Shown: positions 31,622 to 45,206 of the stretch, piece by piece
How positions within the stretch are numbered: position 1 is the first letter of the stretch
Layout of the letters: every line of letters begins with the position of its first letter
Assembly (NCBI GenBank): GCA_027063645.1
Contig: JAMORK010000036.1
Location: 1 to 64,000 of the forward strand
DNA from: Sulfurimonas sp.
GTDB taxonomy: Bacteria; Campylobacterota; Campylobacteria; Campylobacterales; Sulfurimonadaceae
Direction: 5' to 3'
Length of the DNA stretch: 64,000 nucleotides
Program-made: the position numbers and the translations under genes
The notes under the pieces: generated by a model
Told to the model about the DNA's origin: nothing
Database searches by the model: none
The model's input: the letters and a program-made list of their open reading frames with translations, nothing else

Positions 31622-32290
31622 TTATTTATCATATTGTGTCAATTTATTATAACGAATCATACTAGCAAGCTCTTTTCCATAAGCGGCTCCAAGTTCTGAA
31701 TACTTATCTAATTTTTTCACAAGTTCATAGGGATCATTTGTTTTCATTTTTTCTACTCTAAACTGCTCAAACACTTTTCCTGTTGCAAGAATTCTATAAT
31801 AATCTCGAATAGAGTCAGCAATCGTTGTATATTTTTTTACATATACTGTTTTATTCCCTCTTTTTTGACTTGCTGGAACTCTTGGCTCATTTTTATTTAT
31901 GGACCATACACCAAAGACATTGTTTGCTTCTTGAAAAAATCTTGAAGTCCCCCATGCACTCTCCATCGCAGCCTGTGCTAAAGCGATACTTATAGGGTGT
32001 GGTTTCATTCTTTGTAAAAGATCTTGCGGATTCTTTGCAGCATACTTTTTCATAAGTTTTTGAATCTTTGTATTTTGTGGATCTTTTTTTACTAAAGATT
32101 GTGTCTCTACATATTCATTTTCCAATTCTCCATACACCTTTTCAACTGCTGGAACAAGTAAAGCAAAAAAGCGCTTTTTTTTCTCCTGAATACTTATGTT
32201 TTTTGGTATAACTGAAGCTGTATAATGAGCTTGTTTAGCATCCACTTTGTTTGCCTGAAGTAGTGTTGTAGTAAATAGTAGTACTAACAA
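31622..32290 (-). CDS. Glucosaminidase-domain (Bax-like) protein
   Basis: ISIALAQAAMESAWGTSRFFQEANNVFGVWSIN...YYRILATGKVFEQFR; hydrophobic N-terminus. Confidence 0.88.
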   Translation of the reverse strand: MLVLLFTTTLLQANKVDAKQAHYTASVIPKNISIQEKKKRFFALLVPAVEKVYGELENEYVETQSLVKKDPQNTKIQKLMKKYAAKNPQDLLQRMKPHPISIALAQAAMESAWGTSRFFQEANNVFGVWSINKNEPRVPASQKRGNKTVYVKKYTTIADSIRDYYRILATGKVFEQFRVEKMKTNDPYELVKKLDKYSELGAAYGKELASMIRYNKLTQYDK

Positions 32291-36348: not shown

Positions 36349-36921
36349 CTACCAGATAATGATATGCCCTCTTGTGCGTTTGAGATTTTTATAATCAGTT
36401 ACCCAAAATGCATCAACTACATCAGAGACTCTAAAAACTGTTTTTTCTAATACCCTATCATAGACATACATCTCACGAGTTTTTTGATCTACATGAAGCA
36501 ATAGTGCTCCAGCAACACTATCTTCTCTTTGCTTTTGAAATGATGGAACAACACCATTACTTACTGTAAATACTTCATCTACAACAGTAGTTAATGGATG
36601 CCAAATTCTTAAGCGATACACACCATCCATCTTTTCATAAAAAGCTAAAACAAAGTTTTTATCTATACTCTCTATATAATCCGAAACAACCCAACCCTTT
36701 CTTCCATCACTAAACTTTACTTCAGACCAATGATACCCCTTCGCCTCTAACTCTTGAAGTATAGTAATACCACTTGCCCCCTTAGGCAGGGTAAATAAAA
36801 TATTATCTCCAATTTCAACAGAAGATCTAACATTCACATTTTTTACAATGTAATGAATCTCCTTTTGACTTGCATATATAGATACACTTAAAAATAATAT
36901 AATAAAAAGTTTTAACATCAT
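36349..36921 (-). CDS. Secreted SH3-domain protein
   Basis: Signal peptide; VKNVNVRSSVEIGDNILFTLPKGASGITILQELEAKGYHWSEVKFSDGRKGWVVSDYI. Confidence 0.8.
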   Translation of the reverse strand: MMLKLFIILFLSVSIYASQKEIHYIVKNVNVRSSVEIGDNILFTLPKGASGITILQELEAKGYHWSEVKFSDGRKGWVVSDYIESIDKNFVLAFYEKMDGVYRLRIWHPLTTVVDEVFTVSNGVVPSFQKQREDSVAGALLLHVDQKTREMYVYDRVLEKTVFRVSDVVDAFWVTDYKNLKRTRGHIIIW

Positions 36922-36927
36922 TGGCTC

Positions 36928-38937
36928 TTAAAATAGACCTTTAAAGAGTTTGTTTATCTCTTTTTTCACAGCTTTTTCTGCTTGTTTTTTCACTATCTTA
37001 TTTGCATCTACACCAATTTTAGGTGCATTTACATTCCCTCTCACTGTTACACTCAAAGGATTTCCATTTGCATTAATCTCAATTTTTGAGTCAATTATTT
37101 GAGTTTTAGAGTTTAATTTTGTATTTTTTGTGATGATTGAGGACTTGTTAGATTTTAAATCTAGTGAAGCTAAAATATGTTCTTTGTTTATTTTAGCATT
37201 TACATCACCTACAAACTTCTCTTTGTAAAGATTTATTCTTGCATACTGTTTTACAAGGTCAAGCACTTGGTTTCGTGTAAATGTACCATCACTAAGTTTC
37301 CCATCGAATGTACCTTTTTGTGCAACAAGATTATAGTTTAAAACGCCATCAATACTTGATTTAAACATCTTCGGGTATATAAGAATATCTAAGATGTCAA
37401 GTGTTTGAAGTGAAGCTAACTTAGCACTAAAATCATCATTATGTAGTTTTGCATCAAGTTTACCACCCGCTATATCACTATGCATAGTAAAATCTAAATC
37501 TTTTGCTTTTTTTAGCTCACCAGTAGCCACAATGCCACCTTTAAGATGTCTTTGAGTAGCGAAGTAAAGCTTATTGAGGTCTTTTACACTTACCTTATAG
37601 TCACTTACTAAAGAGGCATCTTTTGTATCAAATCTAGCCTGTTTTATATCAAAATTTGCTAGATTAGAATTAAAAATTACTTTTGTATCTACAAGATTCT
37701 TATTGAGTTTTGTGAGTGTTTTAGCATTAAATGCAGTATATGGCATTTTCGATTTAAATTTATACTCTTTTGTTACAAACTTTGTATCTACAATCCCTTT
37801 AGATATAGTTGAGACCACCGTTCCTTGAAGATTATTGGCATCTGCATTAGTGATATCTACATCCATATCAAAGATACCATCTGCATAATGTGGTTGTTTC
37901 ACCATGTAGAGTGCATTTTCTAAACGCAGTCCTTGAATTTTCGCTTTTACACTTGCTGGTGTAAAATCTTTTAAAAGTGCCACAAATGTTGTTTTTGAAT
38001 CTGCAATATCACTACGTCCATCCACTACTAACTCTGCTTTATCACCTTTTACTGTCCCGTTTAAACGTAAAGGACCTCTTAGATCTGCCCCAGTTATAGG
38101 TTTAAGTACCGCTAACTCTTTTACATTCACACCATATTTTATATCTGTTTTTAATGGTTGGGGAACGACTGTACCACTTGATGAGAGTGTTGCAAGATTG
38201 GAGTTGAGAACATACTTATAGTTAACATCATCCCCAGCTAATATCGCATCAAGATTCATTACAAATGCTGTTGCAGGAATCGTGATATTAAAATCTTTTT
38301 TCATAACAGCAGAGTTAAGTTTACCATCTACAGTACGAAGTTTTATCTCTCCATCTAGTTTATGTGGTGCAATATTTTTAAAATCTACATCAACATTAAC
38401 ATCAGCACTTGCATACGATTTTTGATTGAGCATATAGAGTAATGCTTCAAGATCTAAAGTATCTACTTTTGCGATGATAGAGGTAGGATTTAGATCTGTA
38501 AGCTCTATATGGTAAGTGGTACTACTTTTTGCTACATCACTTTTTCCATCTACTTTTAAAAATGCCATATCTCCAACAACTCTACCATCAGTATGAAGAG
38601 AACTTTGAAGCTGTGTTTGAGTAAGTGCTTTTAATGTTTTGAGCTCCTCAAGGTTTACACTGTAAGAGATATCAAAAGATTGAGCAAATAATGAATACTC
38701 TCCCTTAAGATGAATCGTATTGTTTTTATTTAACTCAAGAACAATCTCAAAATCACTCATTCCAAGATGAAATGTTTGGAGCTTAGATGGCAGTTTTGTT
38801 TGTGCTTGAATCTTCGCTTCAATAGTAGGCTGAAGAAGTGAATTTCCAAACGATGTAAACGCGACAGTATAAACTGCCACAACAAGAACAAAGACTAAGC
38901 CTAAGAGATAAGATACTATTTTCATATAACTCTCCAT
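36928..38937 (-). CDS. Large periplasmic AsmA-like protein with N-terminal TM anchor
   Basis: 669 aa, single N-terminal TM then repetitive beta-rich sequence with repeated units (e.g. STTYHIELTDLNPTSIIAKVDTLDLEALLYMLNQKSYASADVNVDVDF vs KTTFVALLKDFTPASVKAKIQGLRLENALYMVKQPHYADGIFDMDVDI). Confidence 0.7.
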   Translation of the reverse strand: MESYMKIVSYLLGLVFVLVVAVYTVAFTSFGNSLLQPTIEAKIQAQTKLPSKLQTFHLGMSDFEIVLELNKNNTIHLKGEYSLFAQSFDISYSVNLEELKTLKALTQTQLQSSLHTDGRVVGDMAFLKVDGKSDVAKSSTTYHIELTDLNPTSIIAKVDTLDLEALLYMLNQKSYASADVNVDVDFKNIAPHKLDGEIKLRTVDGKLNSAVMKKDFNITIPATAFVMNLDAILAGDDVNYKYVLNSNLATLSSSGTVVPQPLKTDIKYGVNVKELAVLKPITGADLRGPLRLNGTVKGDKAELVVDGRSDIADSKTTFVALLKDFTPASVKAKIQGLRLENALYMVKQPHYADGIFDMDVDITNADANNLQGTVVSTISKGIVDTKFVTKEYKFKSKMPYTAFNAKTLTKLNKNLVDTKVIFNSNLANFDIKQARFDTKDASLVSDYKVSVKDLNKLYFATQRHLKGGIVATGELKKAKDLDFTMHSDIAGGKLDAKLHNDDFSAKLASLQTLDILDILIYPKMFKSSIDGVLNYNLVAQKGTFDGKLSDGTFTRNQVLDLVKQYARINLYKEKFVGDVNAKINKEHILASLDLKSNKSSIITKNTKLNSKTQIIDSKIEINANGNPLSVTVRGNVNAPKIGVDANKIVKKQAEKAVKKEINKLFKGLF

Positions 38938-39092
38938 TTTTTTACTATAATCATACTCTCATAAACTTTAATTTTTGTATAGTTGAGTATCACATTTTGC
39001 AATTAATATTCATTTTATCACTTTTTTTTCTTTTTATCACAAAAAGATGATATTATAAGAAACTTTTATATTTACAAAGGTTTTTTATCTCT

Positions 39093-40760
39093 ATGCGTTT
39101 ACTTCTTCTTTTTACTTTACTCTTTAGTTTTGCTTATGCAAAAAGTAAAGACACCTGTTACACTGTCCAGCTGACAAGTTTTAAATTTAAAAAAAACTCT
39201 AGCTATAATTTTACAAAAAAGGGATATCCTGATTCTTGTAAACTCATCTCTTTTACCAACATCAATGCTGTACGTTGTGGTTGTTATGAAAACTATGCAG
39301 ATGCTTTTGAGGAGAAAAAAAAGCTTCAAAAAACCTATAGATCTGCCTTAATTACTACTACTTATAAGTATAGATTTGCTCCGACGATGTCTCTAGCTAC
39401 AAGAGTAACACAGACATACCATGAGAAGAAAGCTCTCCAAGAAACAAAAAAGACAGAACAAATAAAACCTCAAAACACAAATGAAATAACAACCCCCAAA
39501 GAGGAGCAATCTCCTGAGATTCAAGAGGAATCTTTTTATGATAACCTTAGTGTACAAGGGAATATTGACCTTACTACTCAATTTTATCTTCAACGTCCAA
39601 AAGATAAACATGCAGATAATTACACAGCTTCAACAGAACTTGAATTAGGCTATATTAAAGACGATATAGAGTTCAAAACAAAACTCTCTGCACAACAAGA
39701 CTACTATGACCTCAAAGGAACACAGCACCAAACACAAAGAAGTTTTCTCCGTCTTGATGAACTCTATCTTCAATATGAGATGGAAAATGATCAGGTTAAA
39801 GTGGGAAAAGATATCAAATTTTGGGGAGCCTTAGAGGTAAGAAATATCACCGATGGATTTAATCCAACAGACTTAAGAGCAGATCCTTTTTATACCGATA
39901 AGCTTGGGGTATGGAATGCCTCTTTTACACATTACACAGAGAGTGGTGAAGTCTCACTTATTCTTAAAGCCTATGAGCAGAGTCGTGATATGAGTGCCTT
40001 TCCTTATGTCTACTACTATTTTCCAGAAACAATGAACACAAATTTTGGAGCAGTTCCACTACACTATAAAGATGAACTTATCACAGAAAATGCAAAAACA
40101 CGACCAACTCTTTATCTTAAATACTCAGGCTCAACTGATACAGAGTATCCACTTGATTTTGCTATCATTTTACAAAATGGTTACGATTCTCAACGCTACT
40201 ACTCAACAGATTTCTCCCCTGCCACAGGAGATTTTCAAGCAAAAGAGAATGCTTATATTGTCAATAAAATCATAACTTATAATACACTTGTAATTGATAG
40301 CACTCTTTATAAGTTAGAAGCTGTCTATGCCAATGTCAAAAGCTCCAATGAAAATAACATCTCAGACTATATCCATCTAGGTCTTGGAGTGGAACATACT
40401 CTTACTCAGGTTTACAAGGAAGCCGATTTGGGTTTAATCGCTGAGTACTACTACTATGATACTTTAGAAAAAGGGAAGAAAACTGATCTTGAACTCTTTG
40501 AACTTTTTCAAAACGACCTCTTTTTAGGTCTTCGTTATAGCTTTAATGAAGGAAATGATGCAAGTATTATTACCGGTGCTATTTTTGATCTTGATTATAA
40601 TGAACAAGTATATTATTTTGAGTATGAATCCCGTATTGCTGAGATTGTCAAGCTAAATTTTGACTACCGTTACATCCAACCATCTCCAACAAAACCAACT
40701 GCATTTCATCTTATGGGTGCACACGAAAGACTGAGCTTAAAGCTTGGTTACTACTTCTAA
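39093..40760 (+). CDS. Outer-membrane beta-barrel protein with N-terminal SPOR-like region
   Basis: Signal peptide; CYTVQLTSFKF...CGCYENYADAFEEKKKLQ resembles SPOR; alternating amphipathic strands and terminal aromatic (LSLKLGYYF). Confidence 0.72.
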   Translation: MRLLLLFTLLFSFAYAKSKDTCYTVQLTSFKFKKNSSYNFTKKGYPDSCKLISFTNINAVRCGCYENYADAFEEKKKLQKTYRSALITTTYKYRFAPTMSLATRVTQTYHEKKALQETKKTEQIKPQNTNEITTPKEEQSPEIQEESFYDNLSVQGNIDLTTQFYLQRPKDKHADNYTASTELELGYIKDDIEFKTKLSAQQDYYDLKGTQHQTQRSFLRLDELYLQYEMENDQVKVGKDIKFWGALEVRNITDGFNPTDLRADPFYTDKLGVWNASFTHYTESGEVSLILKAYEQSRDMSAFPYVYYYFPETMNTNFGAVPLHYKDELITENAKTRPTLYLKYSGSTDTEYPLDFAIILQNGYDSQRYYSTDFSPATGDFQAKENAYIVNKIITYNTLVIDSTLYKLEAVYANVKSSNENNISDYIHLGLGVEHTLTQVYKEADLGLIAEYYYYDTLEKGKKTDLELFELFQNDLFLGLRYSFNEGNDASIITGAIFDLDYNEQVYYFEYESRIAEIVKLNFDYRYIQPSPTKPTAFHLMGAHERLSLKLGYYF

Positions 40761-40769
40761 AGAGAGTTC

Positions 40770-43061
40770 ATGAAAAAATTTATAGACCTTATTATAAAAC
40801 TGCGATGGATTATTGCCATTGCTATCCCTATCATCACCATCCTTTTTGCTTTTCAATTTAAACATATCCAATTTGATGGCTCCTATAGAATCTGGTTTGG
40901 TGAGAACTCCAAAACACTTAAACAATATGATGAGTTTCGCGATATCTTTGGAAATGACGATGCTATTATTATTGTTTTTCATGATGAAGATGGAGTACTC
41001 AACAAAAAAGCTCTCGGTGTTATTGACAGACTCACAGAAAAACTTTGGCAAACAAAGTACATCGCCCGTGTAGATTCACTTACAAACTACCAGTATATCC
41101 ATGCTGATGAGGAGTACCTCGATGATATTTTGGTAGAAAACTTCATCGAAGATTATACCTCCCTCTCACCTCAAGAGCTCAAAGAAAAAGAACACATTGC
41201 TGTAAATGAAACAATGCTAGTTGGAAAAATCATCTCAAAAGATGCAAAAACAACGATGATAGTGGGGCGACTCGTTCCAAAGGCAAGTACTACACTTGGC
41301 TCATCCAAGTTCATTAAAAATGCAGTTGATGGCTACTTAGCTGAGGAGAAGCAAAGTGGCTACAAATTTCACCTAGCCGGTGGACCTGTAGTCAATCAAA
41401 CATTTTCCTCTTTAGCAAAATACGACATGACCACCTTTACTCCTCTTGTTATTTTAATGGTGATGCTTCTTTTATGGCTTATCTTTAAACGGGCATCGGG
41501 GATGTTTTTGAGTATTAGCATTGTTGTTTTTACCTTTATTATAGTCTTAGCAACACAGGTACTTCTTGGCTACAAACTCAACAACTTCACAGCTAATATG
41601 CCTGTTTTTATCATCGCTATTGGGATTGCAGATGCTACTCACCTTTTTTGGATATACCTCTTAGCACGAAAAGATGGACTTGAAAACTATGCTGCAATCC
41701 ATTACAGTGTTGAAAAAAACTTTTTGCCAATTTTACTCACCTCTTTAACAACAGCAGTGGGTTTTGCCTCTCTTGGAATCTCTGAGATTGTCCCTATCAA
41801 AACACTAGGTATCGCTACAGCAAATGCAGCACTCCTCGCCTTTGTCTTAACTATACTTTTCATCCCTGCACTTCTCGCCATTCTGAATCCAAAAATCACT
41901 CCAAGTGAAAAAAATTTAAAGGACGAGATTAGCACTAGCATCGCCTCAAGATATGCCGCATTTATCATTAAAAATGACACGAAAATCATTTTCACTTCTA
42001 TTGTGGTTTTTGGTTTTATATCTTTAGGACTTTTCAAACTTCAGGTAGATTCTAACTCTATTCGTTATTTTCGTGAAGAGGTACCTTTTCGCTCAGCGGT
42101 AACTTTTATACAAAATAACCTCACCGGTCCTATGGCTTATGAGATAGTGATAGACTCAAAAGCCAAAGATGGGATTAAAAACCCTGCCTTTATGAAAGAG
42201 GTGGAAAAGTTTGAAAAAGAACTCAAGGCAAAATTTCTAGATGCTAGACACACCTCATCCCTTATAGATGTTGTCAAACGCTTCAATGAGATTATGCTTG
42301 GCAAAAATGAGGTACCTAGCTCCAATGAGATTATCGCTCAGTATCTGCTTCTTTACTCCCTCTCTCTCCCTCAAGGGATGGAGATAAATGATAGAATGGA
42401 CATCGATGAAAGACTGCTTCGTTTAACAGCATCCATGGATGTAGTTAACACCTCTTTAGACTTAGAGATGATAGAGTGGATAGAAAACTGGTGGAGAAAC
42501 TCCCCCTACTCAGCACAGGTAAATGGGCAAACGACAATGTTTGCCCACATGCAATCAGATATCACAGATACACTTATACAGTCTATCACTTTGGCTATTA
42601 GTGTGGTCTCTTTAATGATGCTCTTTATCTTTAGAAAAATCAAGATGATTCCACTCTTTGTGATTCCAAATATTTTACCTATTATCTTAGTGCTTGGTGT
42701 TATGGGATGGCTTGGGATTACGATTGACATAGGTGTAGCCATCTCTGGAGCTATTATTATAGGGGTTGCTGTTGATGATACCATCCATTTTTTAGTGAAA
42801 TATAAAGAGGCACGACTTAAGGGATATAACTTCCACGATTCTTTAACTTACATCATGAAGTATGCTGGATCTGCCATTATATTTACTACAGTGATTTTAA
42901 GTACCTCATTTTTGATTTTTAGATTTTCAGACTTTATGCTCAATGTAAATTTTGGTATTGTCACAGCCATTGCACTTATCATCGCCGTTTTAGTTGATCT
43001 TTTTATGCTTCCTGCAATTTTAAGTAAATATGATGGCAAAGAGAAAAGCTTTCTCAATTAA
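40770..43061 (+). CDS. RND/MMPL-family exporter
   Basis: 763 aa; GIADATHLFWIYLL and GVAVDDTIHFLVKYKEA motifs, two 6-TM halves, 9-nt gap after the barrel gene. Confidence 0.9.
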   Translation: MKKFIDLIIKLRWIIAIAIPIITILFAFQFKHIQFDGSYRIWFGENSKTLKQYDEFRDIFGNDDAIIIVFHDEDGVLNKKALGVIDRLTEKLWQTKYIARVDSLTNYQYIHADEEYLDDILVENFIEDYTSLSPQELKEKEHIAVNETMLVGKIISKDAKTTMIVGRLVPKASTTLGSSKFIKNAVDGYLAEEKQSGYKFHLAGGPVVNQTFSSLAKYDMTTFTPLVILMVMLLLWLIFKRASGMFLSISIVVFTFIIVLATQVLLGYKLNNFTANMPVFIIAIGIADATHLFWIYLLARKDGLENYAAIHYSVEKNFLPILLTSLTTAVGFASLGISEIVPIKTLGIATANAALLAFVLTILFIPALLAILNPKITPSEKNLKDEISTSIASRYAAFIIKNDTKIIFTSIVVFGFISLGLFKLQVDSNSIRYFREEVPFRSAVTFIQNNLTGPMAYEIVIDSKAKDGIKNPAFMKEVEKFEKELKAKFLDARHTSSLIDVVKRFNEIMLGKNEVPSSNEIIAQYLLLYSLSLPQGMEINDRMDIDERLLRLTASMDVVNTSLDLEMIEWIENWWRNSPYSAQVNGQTTMFAHMQSDITDTLIQSITLAISVVSLMMLFIFRKIKMIPLFVIPNILPIILVLGVMGWLGITIDIGVAISGAIIIGVAVDDTIHFLVKYKEARLKGYNFHDSLTYIMKYAGSAIIFTTVILSTSFLIFRFSDFMLNVNFGIVTAIALIIAVLVDLFMLPAILSKYDGKEKSFLN

Positions 43062-43098
43062 TTACTTATAGTAACGCTATGGGTAATTATCATTTTTT
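43059..43098 (+). terminator. Hairpin and T-tract after the MMPL gene
   Basis: TAATTAC-tt-ATAG-taacg-CTAT-gg-GTAATTA then tcaTTTTTT; stem begins with the MMPL stop codon. Confidence 0.65.
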
Positions 43099-43168
43099 GT
43101 GATAATATTGTGATAATATTGTAGCTTTTTAGACTATACTTATATAATTATTTATTATAAGGGTATCT

Positions 43169-44953
43169 ATGTTCGACATACAAAAAGCATTTCATAAAAA
43201 CTTTCCTAAGCTTGTGAAGAGACTACCAAAACCTCTCACTCAGAAAATTATTAATACATTACGAAAAATATTTCATGAAGAAACCTTTCAAGCTATCCAT
43301 GAAAAAAATCACCATCTTCGTGGACTTGATTTTGTCGATAGTATGCTTGAAAACCTTAATATTAAATACACCCTCCAATATAATGAACTAAAAAATATCC
43401 CATCAGAGGGAAGACTCCTTGTAGTGGCAAACCATATTACTGGAGCAAGTGATGCTTTTGCTCTTGTACAACTCCTTGGAACCTTACGTGATGACAAAAA
43501 AGTACGACTCTTAGTTAATGGGATGCTTATGGGTGTGGAGCAAGCCTCAGAGATTATTATCGGAGTTGACAACATCAATGGAGCTATCACAAAAGAGAGC
43601 TTTAAAGAGATAAATAATGCTCTTAAAAATGATGAGGCTGTAGTTGTATTTCCCTCAGGTATTGTCAATAGATTCTCTTTTTTTAGAGGTCTCAAAGACA
43701 CCCCATGGAAACCAAGCTTTTTAAAGATGGCAAAACGTACCAACACTCCAATCTTACCAGTAAGGATAAAAAGCCGTAACTCTATACAGTTTTATATCCT
43801 CTCAATGCTTCTTCCTAAAAAGCTTACTGGATTTATGCTTCCTCATGAGTTTGCAACTGCAGGAGAGCAAAAGCCTCTCCATTTTCATATAGGAAATGTA
43901 ATTCCTGTGAAAACATTTTCAGATAAAAATATATCTTTAGATACATATGTCAAAATGTTTTACAATCACCTCTACACTCTAGGTACAGATAAAAAACCTG
44001 TCCTTCAAACAGAGATTACAATCTCCAATGCTCACAATAAAATGATGCTACGTGAAGAGGTACGAGCAGCAACCTTTTTAGGTAATACTATAGATGGAAA
44101 AAGAATCATCTTAGCAGATGCCCTTAGTTCTCCATTTCTAACACGAGAACTTGGACGTGTAAGAGAGATCTCTTTTCGTGCAATTGGTGGAGGAACTGGT
44201 ACAGCTCAAGATAATGATCTTTATGATAACTACTACCGTCATCTTATCTTATGGGATAATGATGACTTTGAAATTGTTGGGGCTTATAGAATTGGTGAGG
44301 TCAAAGGGATACTTAAAGATAAAGGGATGCCTGGTCTTTATACCTATAACCAATGTAATTTTAATGAACACTTTAACAGCTACTGTGACAACTCTGTAGA
44401 GCTTGGACGTAGTTTCATCCAACCAAAGTATTGGAACTCCCGTGCTCTTGACAACCTCTGGCAGGGTGTTGGAGCCTACCTAGCAAACAATCCTCAAATC
44501 CGTTACACCTATGGAGTTGTTACCATCAATGCTAACACTCCAAAAAAAGCAGTGGCTGCACTTGTATACTTCTACTCTCATCACTTTTCATGCCATACAA
44601 ATATGATGGAAGCAAAAGAGCCTTACTATATGAGTTATGAGGACTCTAAAGAGTTTAAATATATGTTTAATCATCTCTCTTATAAAGAGGGCTTTGTTGT
44701 TCTTAAAAAATATCTCAAAACATTAAACACTACAGTTCCTACTCTCTTTAAACAGTATGCTGAACTTTATGAAGAGGGTGCTGTACGTTTCTTTGACTTT
44801 AGTATCAATGAAAAACTTCATGGTGTAGTTGAAGGCTTTATCATAGCAGACAATTCAAGAATGAAAGAGGCTAAACGTAAACGCTATATTAAAAATTTTC
44901 AAAATATAGATGAAGATGAGATATCAGAAGAGTCTCTTCAAACTGCTTCATAA
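43169..44953 (+). CDS. Fusion acyltransferase: N-terminal PlsC-like domain plus C-terminal OlsB/GNAT-like domain (ornithine-lipid synthase OlsF-like)
   Basis: PlsC half VVANHITGASDAFALVQLL...VVVFPSGIVNRF; OlsB-like half ILADALSSPFLTRELGRVREISFRAIGGGTG...LGRSFIQPKYWNSRALDNLWQGVGAYL. Confidence 0.8.
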   Translation: MFDIQKAFHKNFPKLVKRLPKPLTQKIINTLRKIFHEETFQAIHEKNHHLRGLDFVDSMLENLNIKYTLQYNELKNIPSEGRLLVVANHITGASDAFALVQLLGTLRDDKKVRLLVNGMLMGVEQASEIIIGVDNINGAITKESFKEINNALKNDEAVVVFPSGIVNRFSFFRGLKDTPWKPSFLKMAKRTNTPILPVRIKSRNSIQFYILSMLLPKKLTGFMLPHEFATAGEQKPLHFHIGNVIPVKTFSDKNISLDTYVKMFYNHLYTLGTDKKPVLQTEITISNAHNKMMLREEVRAATFLGNTIDGKRIILADALSSPFLTRELGRVREISFRAIGGGTGTAQDNDLYDNYYRHLILWDNDDFEIVGAYRIGEVKGILKDKGMPGLYTYNQCNFNEHFNSYCDNSVELGRSFIQPKYWNSRALDNLWQGVGAYLANNPQIRYTYGVVTINANTPKKAVAALVYFYSHHFSCHTNMMEAKEPYYMSYEDSKEFKYMFNHLSYKEGFVVLKKYLKTLNTTVPTLFKQYAELYEEGAVRFFDFSINEKLHGVVEGFIIADNSRMKEAKRKRYIKNFQNIDEDEISEESLQTAS

Positions 44954-45139
44954 GTTCTCTTTTTCACTCCCCTAACTTTTCTTAATATTCTAGCATTTTG
45001 CTAGATTATAACAAATTACACAGCTTTTTTCCTATCTATTTTTCTTCTCAAATCCTCTTAGTTGTCCTAAATCAGGGATTAAAACACATAGTTTAGTCTA
45101 TAGCTATCAAGTTGATTAACAAAATAGACTAAATATATA

Positions 45140-45169
45140 CTTGACATTGTTACACTCAATATGTATAAT
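45140..45169 (+). promoter_or_regulatory. grpE promoter with overlapping HAIR-like element
   Basis: TTGACA (45141-45146), 17-nt spacer, TATAAT (45164-45169), both consensus; CTTGACA-N7-ACTCAAT at 45140-45160 resembles HspR HAIR CTTGAGT-N7-ACTCAAG at 11 of 14 positions. Confidence 0.65.
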
Positions 45170-45206
45170 ACTTCTATCTTTTTAAAAAAGGAGTCATTTA
45201 ACTATT

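Follow-up and report, generated by a model that had tools for sequence, protein, structure and literature searches.

Aminolipids are found in the inner as well as the outer membrane of Gram-negative bacteria. Their arrival at the outer membrane is not discussed in a recent aminolipid review, which contains neither the word 'transport' nor 'exporter' (PMC11631085), and in the open-licence literature we found no MMPL/LolA-like route for ornithine lipids. The closest described systems are the bifunctional aminolipid synthase OlsF (NF052615), the lipid transporters of the RND superfamily (HpnN, BstA-type transporters and the MmpL exporters), a trio of Campylobacterota genes encoding a LolA-like protein (PF17131), a beta-barrel and an MMPL protein, and the cyclic di-GMP (c-di-GMP) receptor PelD (PF16963). 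Here we describe a locus in a stretch of 64,000 nucleotides (nt) from Sulfurimonas sp. (assembly GCA_027063645.1, contig JAMORK010000036.1, positions 1 to 64,000; hereafter the window) that encodes an outer-membrane barrel, an MMPL pump and an OlsF-type synthase in succession. We consider it somewhat better than even (probability about 0.55) that these genes are a copy of a cassette for the synthesis of an OlsF-type aminolipid (ornithine lipid or a closely related compound) and for its delivery to the outer membrane. A conserved operon combining an aminolipid synthase with a carrier, a pump and a barrel makes the question of outer-membrane delivery directly testable.

The three genes lie on the + strand and encode a barrel protein of 555 amino acids (aa; 39093..40760), an MMPL/RND (HAE3-like) inner-membrane transporter of 763 aa (40770..43061) and a synthase of 594 aa (43169..44953). 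The initial annotation had delimited these genes and a minus-strand AsmA-like gene to their left correctly, including the 9-nt gap between barrel and pump, and had joined all four products into one system. For barrel, pump and synthase this proposal withstood the search for co-occurrence in other genomes: in a family-level survey of about 200 genomes, 15 further genomes carry a SPOR-like barrel, an MMPL and an OlsF gene in this order on one contig and one strand, with varied flanks. The AsmA-like protein had to be dropped, and two elements had been overlooked, a LolA-like carrier and the GGDEF domains fused to the synthase in some relatives. An earlier order-level survey of 120 genomes had found barrel and MMPL genes adjacent and OlsF elsewhere, which seemed to contradict the link with OlsF; the family-level survey resolves this contradiction. 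In our named collection, the loci nearest to that of the window are mostly from Sulfurimonas.

The synthase was called OlsF-like in the initial annotation, and the curated model agrees: the protein scores 621.6 bits with NF052615 against a cut-off of 620, a margin of 1.6 bits, over positions 1-570 of the 570 of the model. As in described OlsF proteins, a PF19576 domain precedes a GNAT-type N-acyltransferase domain (PF13444, 2.1e-20; 44162..44464), and the acyltransferase motif NHxxGxxD of the N-terminal domain is intact (N88, H89, G92, D95; 43430..43453) and invariant in all OlsFs aligned. In contrast to these proteins, the cassette enzyme belongs to a divergent clade near the cut-off, is encoded with a pump and a barrel, and has seven relatives with a degenerate GGDEF domain. 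The cassette OlsFs form a single clade (Shimodaira-Hasegawa-like approximate likelihood ratio test, SH-aLRT, 100%) beside the ordinary OlsFs, and score 622-653 bits with NF052615 versus 754-767 for the latter. As most genomes with the cassette also encode an ordinary OlsF elsewhere, the cassette enzyme is an extra, specialised copy. This resembles the situation in Vibrio cholerae, where vca0649-0646 is a four-gene operon that ends with the second OlsF gene of the genome and is regulated apart from the phosphate-controlled copy (PMC12186959, PMC11573629). Directly upstream of OlsF, no gene of MMPL size was found in the neighbourhoods examined on large replicons of Vibrio sp. THAF191d and Photobacterium sp. 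GJ3.

The window enzyme probably makes an unusual amino-acid lipid, predicted to be ornithine lipid or a closely related compound. Lipidomics of the genus fits a role for such lipids, as ornithine lipid amounts to 40% in S. gotlandica grown on nitrate and two relatives contain almost none (PMC9789136), and is no test of the cassette itself. Two OlsFs of the cassette clade in the OlsF tree, those of genomes G068 and G179, are encoded outside cassettes. At L208:1801-8452 and L139:8638-16023, in two genomes of different families, a cassette-clade OlsF gene without barrel or pump lies beside genes that by sequence are TetR-regulated TolC/HlyD-type efflux genes.

The assignment of the second gene to the MMPL/RND proteins also stands (Pfam MMPL, 8.9e-30, 104.2 bits against a cut-off of 20.5). 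Within the superfamily the protein matches TIGR00921 (HAE3) at 7.9e-59 with 199.4 bits, below the subfamily cut-off of 351.9. It shares with HpnN, the BstA-type transporters and the MmpL exporters the membership of the RND superfamily and weak model matches (HpnN 1.9e-27, BstA 7e-7), and weak matches in the PDB are to HpnN and MmpL4/3. Unlike these transporters, it stays far under the curated cut-offs (NF052374, 56.6 against 1100 bits; TIGR03480, 95.6 against 751.85, both models of HpnN), and partners and cargo differ. In the pump tree, the MMPLs encoded 5' of OlsF group in a single clade (SH-aLRT 100), which is nested among pumps of the same family from loci that lack both SPOR module and OlsF. 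The pump of L217, the single locus with a SPOR-barrel and without OlsF, branches just outside this clade, which suggests that the SPOR module was acquired first and OlsF second.

The first gene encodes a signal peptide, a SPOR-like module (aa ~21-95; 39153..39377), a disordered linker (aa ~100-146) and a C-terminal beta-barrel (aa ~148-555). It has no Pfam match, and a profile search against PDB sequences returned nothing. The AlphaFold2 model, based on 28 relatives (mean predicted local distance difference test score 85.9), has an outer-membrane barrel joined by a disordered linker to a small N-terminal domain, in line with the barrel proposed from the sequence; in Foldseek it matches Campylobacter MOMP, OmpM1 and AlgE best among PDB structures (E 1e-13 to 1e-9). 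The module has a predicted beta-alpha-beta-beta-alpha-beta order of strands and helices that is compatible with SPOR, and its alignment contains four invariant cysteines (C22, C49, C62, C64). It is present in the barrels of the cassettes and absent from those encoded with LolA and MMPL only. Its SPOR identity is tentative: SPOR is the commonest Pfam match, yet weak and limited to 4 of 17 homologues (best E 0.036), a profile search of PDB sequences gave no match to the module, and Foldseek of the isolated domain returned insignificant ferredoxin-like folds only. The tie to septal peptidoglycan suggested in the initial annotation is likewise tentative. The same cysteine-rich module recurs on many proteins of ~1030 aa within the family.

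Two versions of the locus can be distinguished. Version I, widespread in Campylobacterota, consists of the genes for LolA_like (PF17131), barrel and MMPL, without SPOR module and without OlsF; version II has the order LolA_like, SPOR-barrel, MMPL and OlsF. Similar to version I, the window genome has the same three families in the same order; in contrast to it, the window locus includes the SPOR-like module and OlsF, and the LolA-like gene is on another contig. The window barrel and pump are orthologous to those of the trio in genomes of the family (barrel 45-54% identity, MMPL 58-66%). Version II descends from an older LolA/barrel/MMPL trio that had neither SPOR nor OlsF. In the 15 genomes with the complete order, the barrels are homologous over their full length including the SPOR-like part (52-61% identity to the window protein), the OlsFs belong to the window clade (56-73%), and the MMPL lies between the two. 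OlsF follows 17 of the 18 SPOR-barrel/MMPL pairs versus none of more than 40 pairs with a SPOR-less barrel, where genome counts do not represent independent events. Gaps in version II range from -1 to 16 nt between barrel and pump and from -47 to 118 nt between pump and OlsF. Version II travels as a unit, a mobile cassette, because it occurs in at least four different settings: 5' of dapA-fabI-like genes, beside efflux genes, by a trmE-like gene and by grpE.

Several observations concern the surroundings of the two versions. In one family, version I operons follow genes for a membrane protein of ~206 aa and a 92-aa HTH_34 regulator (L118:7000-7925 and similar), probably a control module of their own. 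On a Pseudoalteromonas plasmid an MMPL gene is likewise paired with a LolA-like gene, so that the pairing extends beyond the Campylobacterota. Downstream of the cassette in L213 and L215 an aryl-polyene-like context was considered and rejected; the ketosynthase guess was wrong, and by sequence, without a family scan, the genes resemble an ABC-type efflux set.

In the cassettes of relatives, the LolA-like gene is usually found 5' of the barrel. It is absent from the window locus, where the left junction between the AsmA-like and barrel start codons (38938..39092, 155 nt) is too small to hold it, and is found in the same assembly on contig C3 (PF17131, 2e-56), alone at the version I site and 67 nt from mgtE. 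This is the fifth case of a split system. All 20 genomes with a version-II-type barrel contain exactly one LolA that is at least 58% identical, one such barrel and at least one MMPL that is at least 60% identical; in 5 of these 20 the parts are divided between two loci, in three different ways. In G267, G273 and G285 the version I site encodes LolA and pump but no barrel, and a version II barrel stands alone at another locus. In G305 (SAG-AH-194-L11) LolA and pump are again encoded at the version I site, and the version II site comprises SPOR-barrel, pump and OlsF but no LolA. In the window genome, LolA is at the version I site, and barrel, pump and OlsF are in the window. All four barrel-less version I operons of the named collection come from genomes with a version II barrel, representing perhaps two or three independent events. 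Such complementary loss is expected of a single machine made up of LolA, barrel and pump, with parts that can be exchanged between versions.

Where the version II barrel stands alone (three genomes), its open reading frame measures 423-451 aa, too short for the SPOR module, and the cassette-clade OlsF is gone. The deletion is visible in L218, where the signal peptide and the first SPOR strand are fused straight to the barrel. Retention and loss of the SPOR module and of OlsF thus follow those of the version II pump. Directly 5' of the LolA-like gene, the version I site of several Sulfurimonas (L224, L231, L264) carries homologues of a glucosaminidase gene that is found in the window at 31622-32290 on the minus strand; the window copy may have moved away from the version I operon.

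Seven cassette OlsFs (L207, L210, L212-L216) end in a C-terminal GGDEF domain, identified in L207 by PF00990 (2e-26) and TIGR00254 (67.6 bits against a cut-off of 37.4). The catalytic GG(D/E)EF motif is gone from all seven domains, and all seven retain the RxxD inhibitory site at canonical spacing; the GGDEF-bearing copy of L210 has an internal stop codon. A degenerate GGDEF domain with an RxxD I-site is the pattern of c-di-GMP receptors such as PelD, in which the domain acts as receptor through this site. The same function is predicted here from sequence, so that in some relatives the fused domain would sense c-di-GMP and gate lipid synthesis; in contrast to PelD, the domain is attached to an acyltransferase. 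A report of an OlsF-GGDEF or GGDEF-acyltransferase fusion was not found in the open-licence literature. Among the ordinary OlsFs listed in the surveys, every open frame is too short to accommodate a GGDEF domain. The window OlsF is not among the fused proteins, and no GGDEF remnant was found downstream of it in the right junction with grpE (44954..45206, 253 nt). We considered that it had lost the domain and rejected this: the GGDEF-bearing proteins form one subclade of the OlsF tree (SH-aLRT 91), which makes a single gain simpler, although they fall into two groups in the MMPL tree. Directly 3' of OlsF-GGDEF, two genomes of one genus encode a protein of ~405 aa (L214:13561-14778, L216:12374-13582; 63% identical) that has no Pfam family and whose HSxxDG motif resembles condensation/acetyltransferase enzymes; it is perhaps a third acyltransferase.

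Gene order and its conservation, common descent, the joint retention of LolA, barrel and pump, and the loss of the GGDEF motif with a retained I-site are observations; the cargo, the direction of transport, the role of the N-terminal arm and the binding of c-di-GMP are inferred. In the mechanism we propose, OlsF would acylate an amino acid twice, on N and on O, at the inner membrane, and the MMPL pump, driven by the proton gradient, would extract the lipid from this membrane. The LolA-like protein, whose gene is on another contig in the window genome, would ferry the lipid across the periplasm to the barrel, which may accept or translocate it at the outer membrane, and whose SPOR-like N-terminal arm probably anchors it to the wall or serves as a docking site for the carrier. 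An extended proposal is tentative, and we rate it below even odds: a dedicated envelope machine would produce an aminolipid and deliver it to the outer membrane, and in part of the family c-di-GMP would control the synthase directly through the fused degenerate GGDEF domain. If true, c-di-GMP would be linked allosterically to the synthesis of membrane lipids, and aminolipids would have a transport route. The fusions suggest that lipid composition can be controlled by c-di-GMP; in abundant marine sulfur oxidisers, a surface lipid would then be coupled to the biofilm switch.

A number of points weigh against a cassette that makes and exports an aminolipid. The aminolipid cargo is putative, and the amino acid used by the window OlsF is uncertain given the narrow margin over the model cut-off. 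The near-complete genomes G049 and G063 have a version I trio without any OlsF, so the original cargo was other than an OlsF lipid and may still be other here. The barrel, LolA and pump could be importers, and the contig with the LolA gene could in principle be misbinned, as the source assembly (G000) is 54% complete.

LolA-like protein, barrel and MMPL may instead form a general exporter of hydrophobic compounds with another cargo, and OlsF may have been recruited to adjust the membrane, for instance by stabilising the pump or replacing phospholipid, rather than to supply cargo. A trio that predates the link with OlsF and is common without it is consistent with this, as are the presence of TetR-efflux genes instead of a pump and barrel next to the OlsFs of G068 and G179 and the free mixing of parts between versions, which argues that carrier and barrel are not strictly cargo-specific. 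Such an exporter is nevertheless rather unlikely, as the link between OlsF and the cassette MMPL clade holds at all loci but one and the enzyme is kept as an extra copy despite the ordinary one. It is clearly improbable that the trio takes up hydrophobic compounds or moves them in the retrograde direction, and that OlsF uses or sequesters acyl chains imported in this way. In Thalassolituus, a related MMPL/LolA-like protein with an adjacent porin-like protein is induced during growth on C28 alkane and was proposed to aid alkane uptake (PMC6304351), and BstABC-type systems are reported to move sterols (PMC10942540); in the cassette, however, a biosynthetic enzyme stands in gene order with the pump, and no fatty-acid or alkane degradation genes were seen. 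That functionally unrelated genes became adjacent by chance at an insertion-prone site is hardly credible, since the operon recurs in 15 genomes at other sites, even though the site beside AsmA and grpE varies (the window has an SH3 protein there, G102 an unrelated MMPL-like gene and G034 a Pel operon).

With regard to the regulation of the putative aminolipid cassette, a promoter and terminator scan of the locus gave nothing decisive; a perfect sigma-70-like site sits 5' of grpE and none such 5' of the trio. A Pho box scan of the window with a C. jejuni-type pattern, allowing 3 mismatches, gave 27 matches versus 18.8 expected and none upstream of the barrel, leaving phosphate control unsupported.

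The AsmA-like protein (669 aa, membrane-anchored and periplasmic; 36928..38937, minus strand), counted as a member of the system in the initial annotation, is a bystander. In same-genus genomes (L132, L133, L137) the order is lepA, comF, AsmA (reverse), grpE and dnaK, with nothing between AsmA and grpE, and the window trio (39093-44953) occupies exactly this gap. As the order comF-AsmA-grpE-dnaK persists without the trio, AsmA is a resident of a different, conserved housekeeping neighbourhood beside which the trio was inserted; in G063, AsmA and the trio homologue are on different contigs. The AsmA match is weak, with one of seven orthologues recognized by PF05170 (2.8e-5) and the window protein not among them, and a profile search of the protein against PDB sequences returned nothing.

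The comF-AsmA-grpE interval collects insertions. In the window, a gene for a 190-aa SH3_3 protein (36349-36921, minus strand) separates comF from AsmA, which are adjacent in relatives of the same genus. In G102, of the same family, genes for a distant MMPL-like protein of 696 aa and a thioredoxin-like protein of 154 aa are inserted between comF and AsmA (L134:7169-9729), on the other side of AsmA than the insert of the window. In G034 (L135:1-17038), a Pel-type exopolysaccharide operon (PelF, PelG, PelD_GGDEF) adjoins AsmA, and a Porin_O_P protein and a protein of ~1040 aa encoded in it begin with the SPOR-like module of the window barrel.

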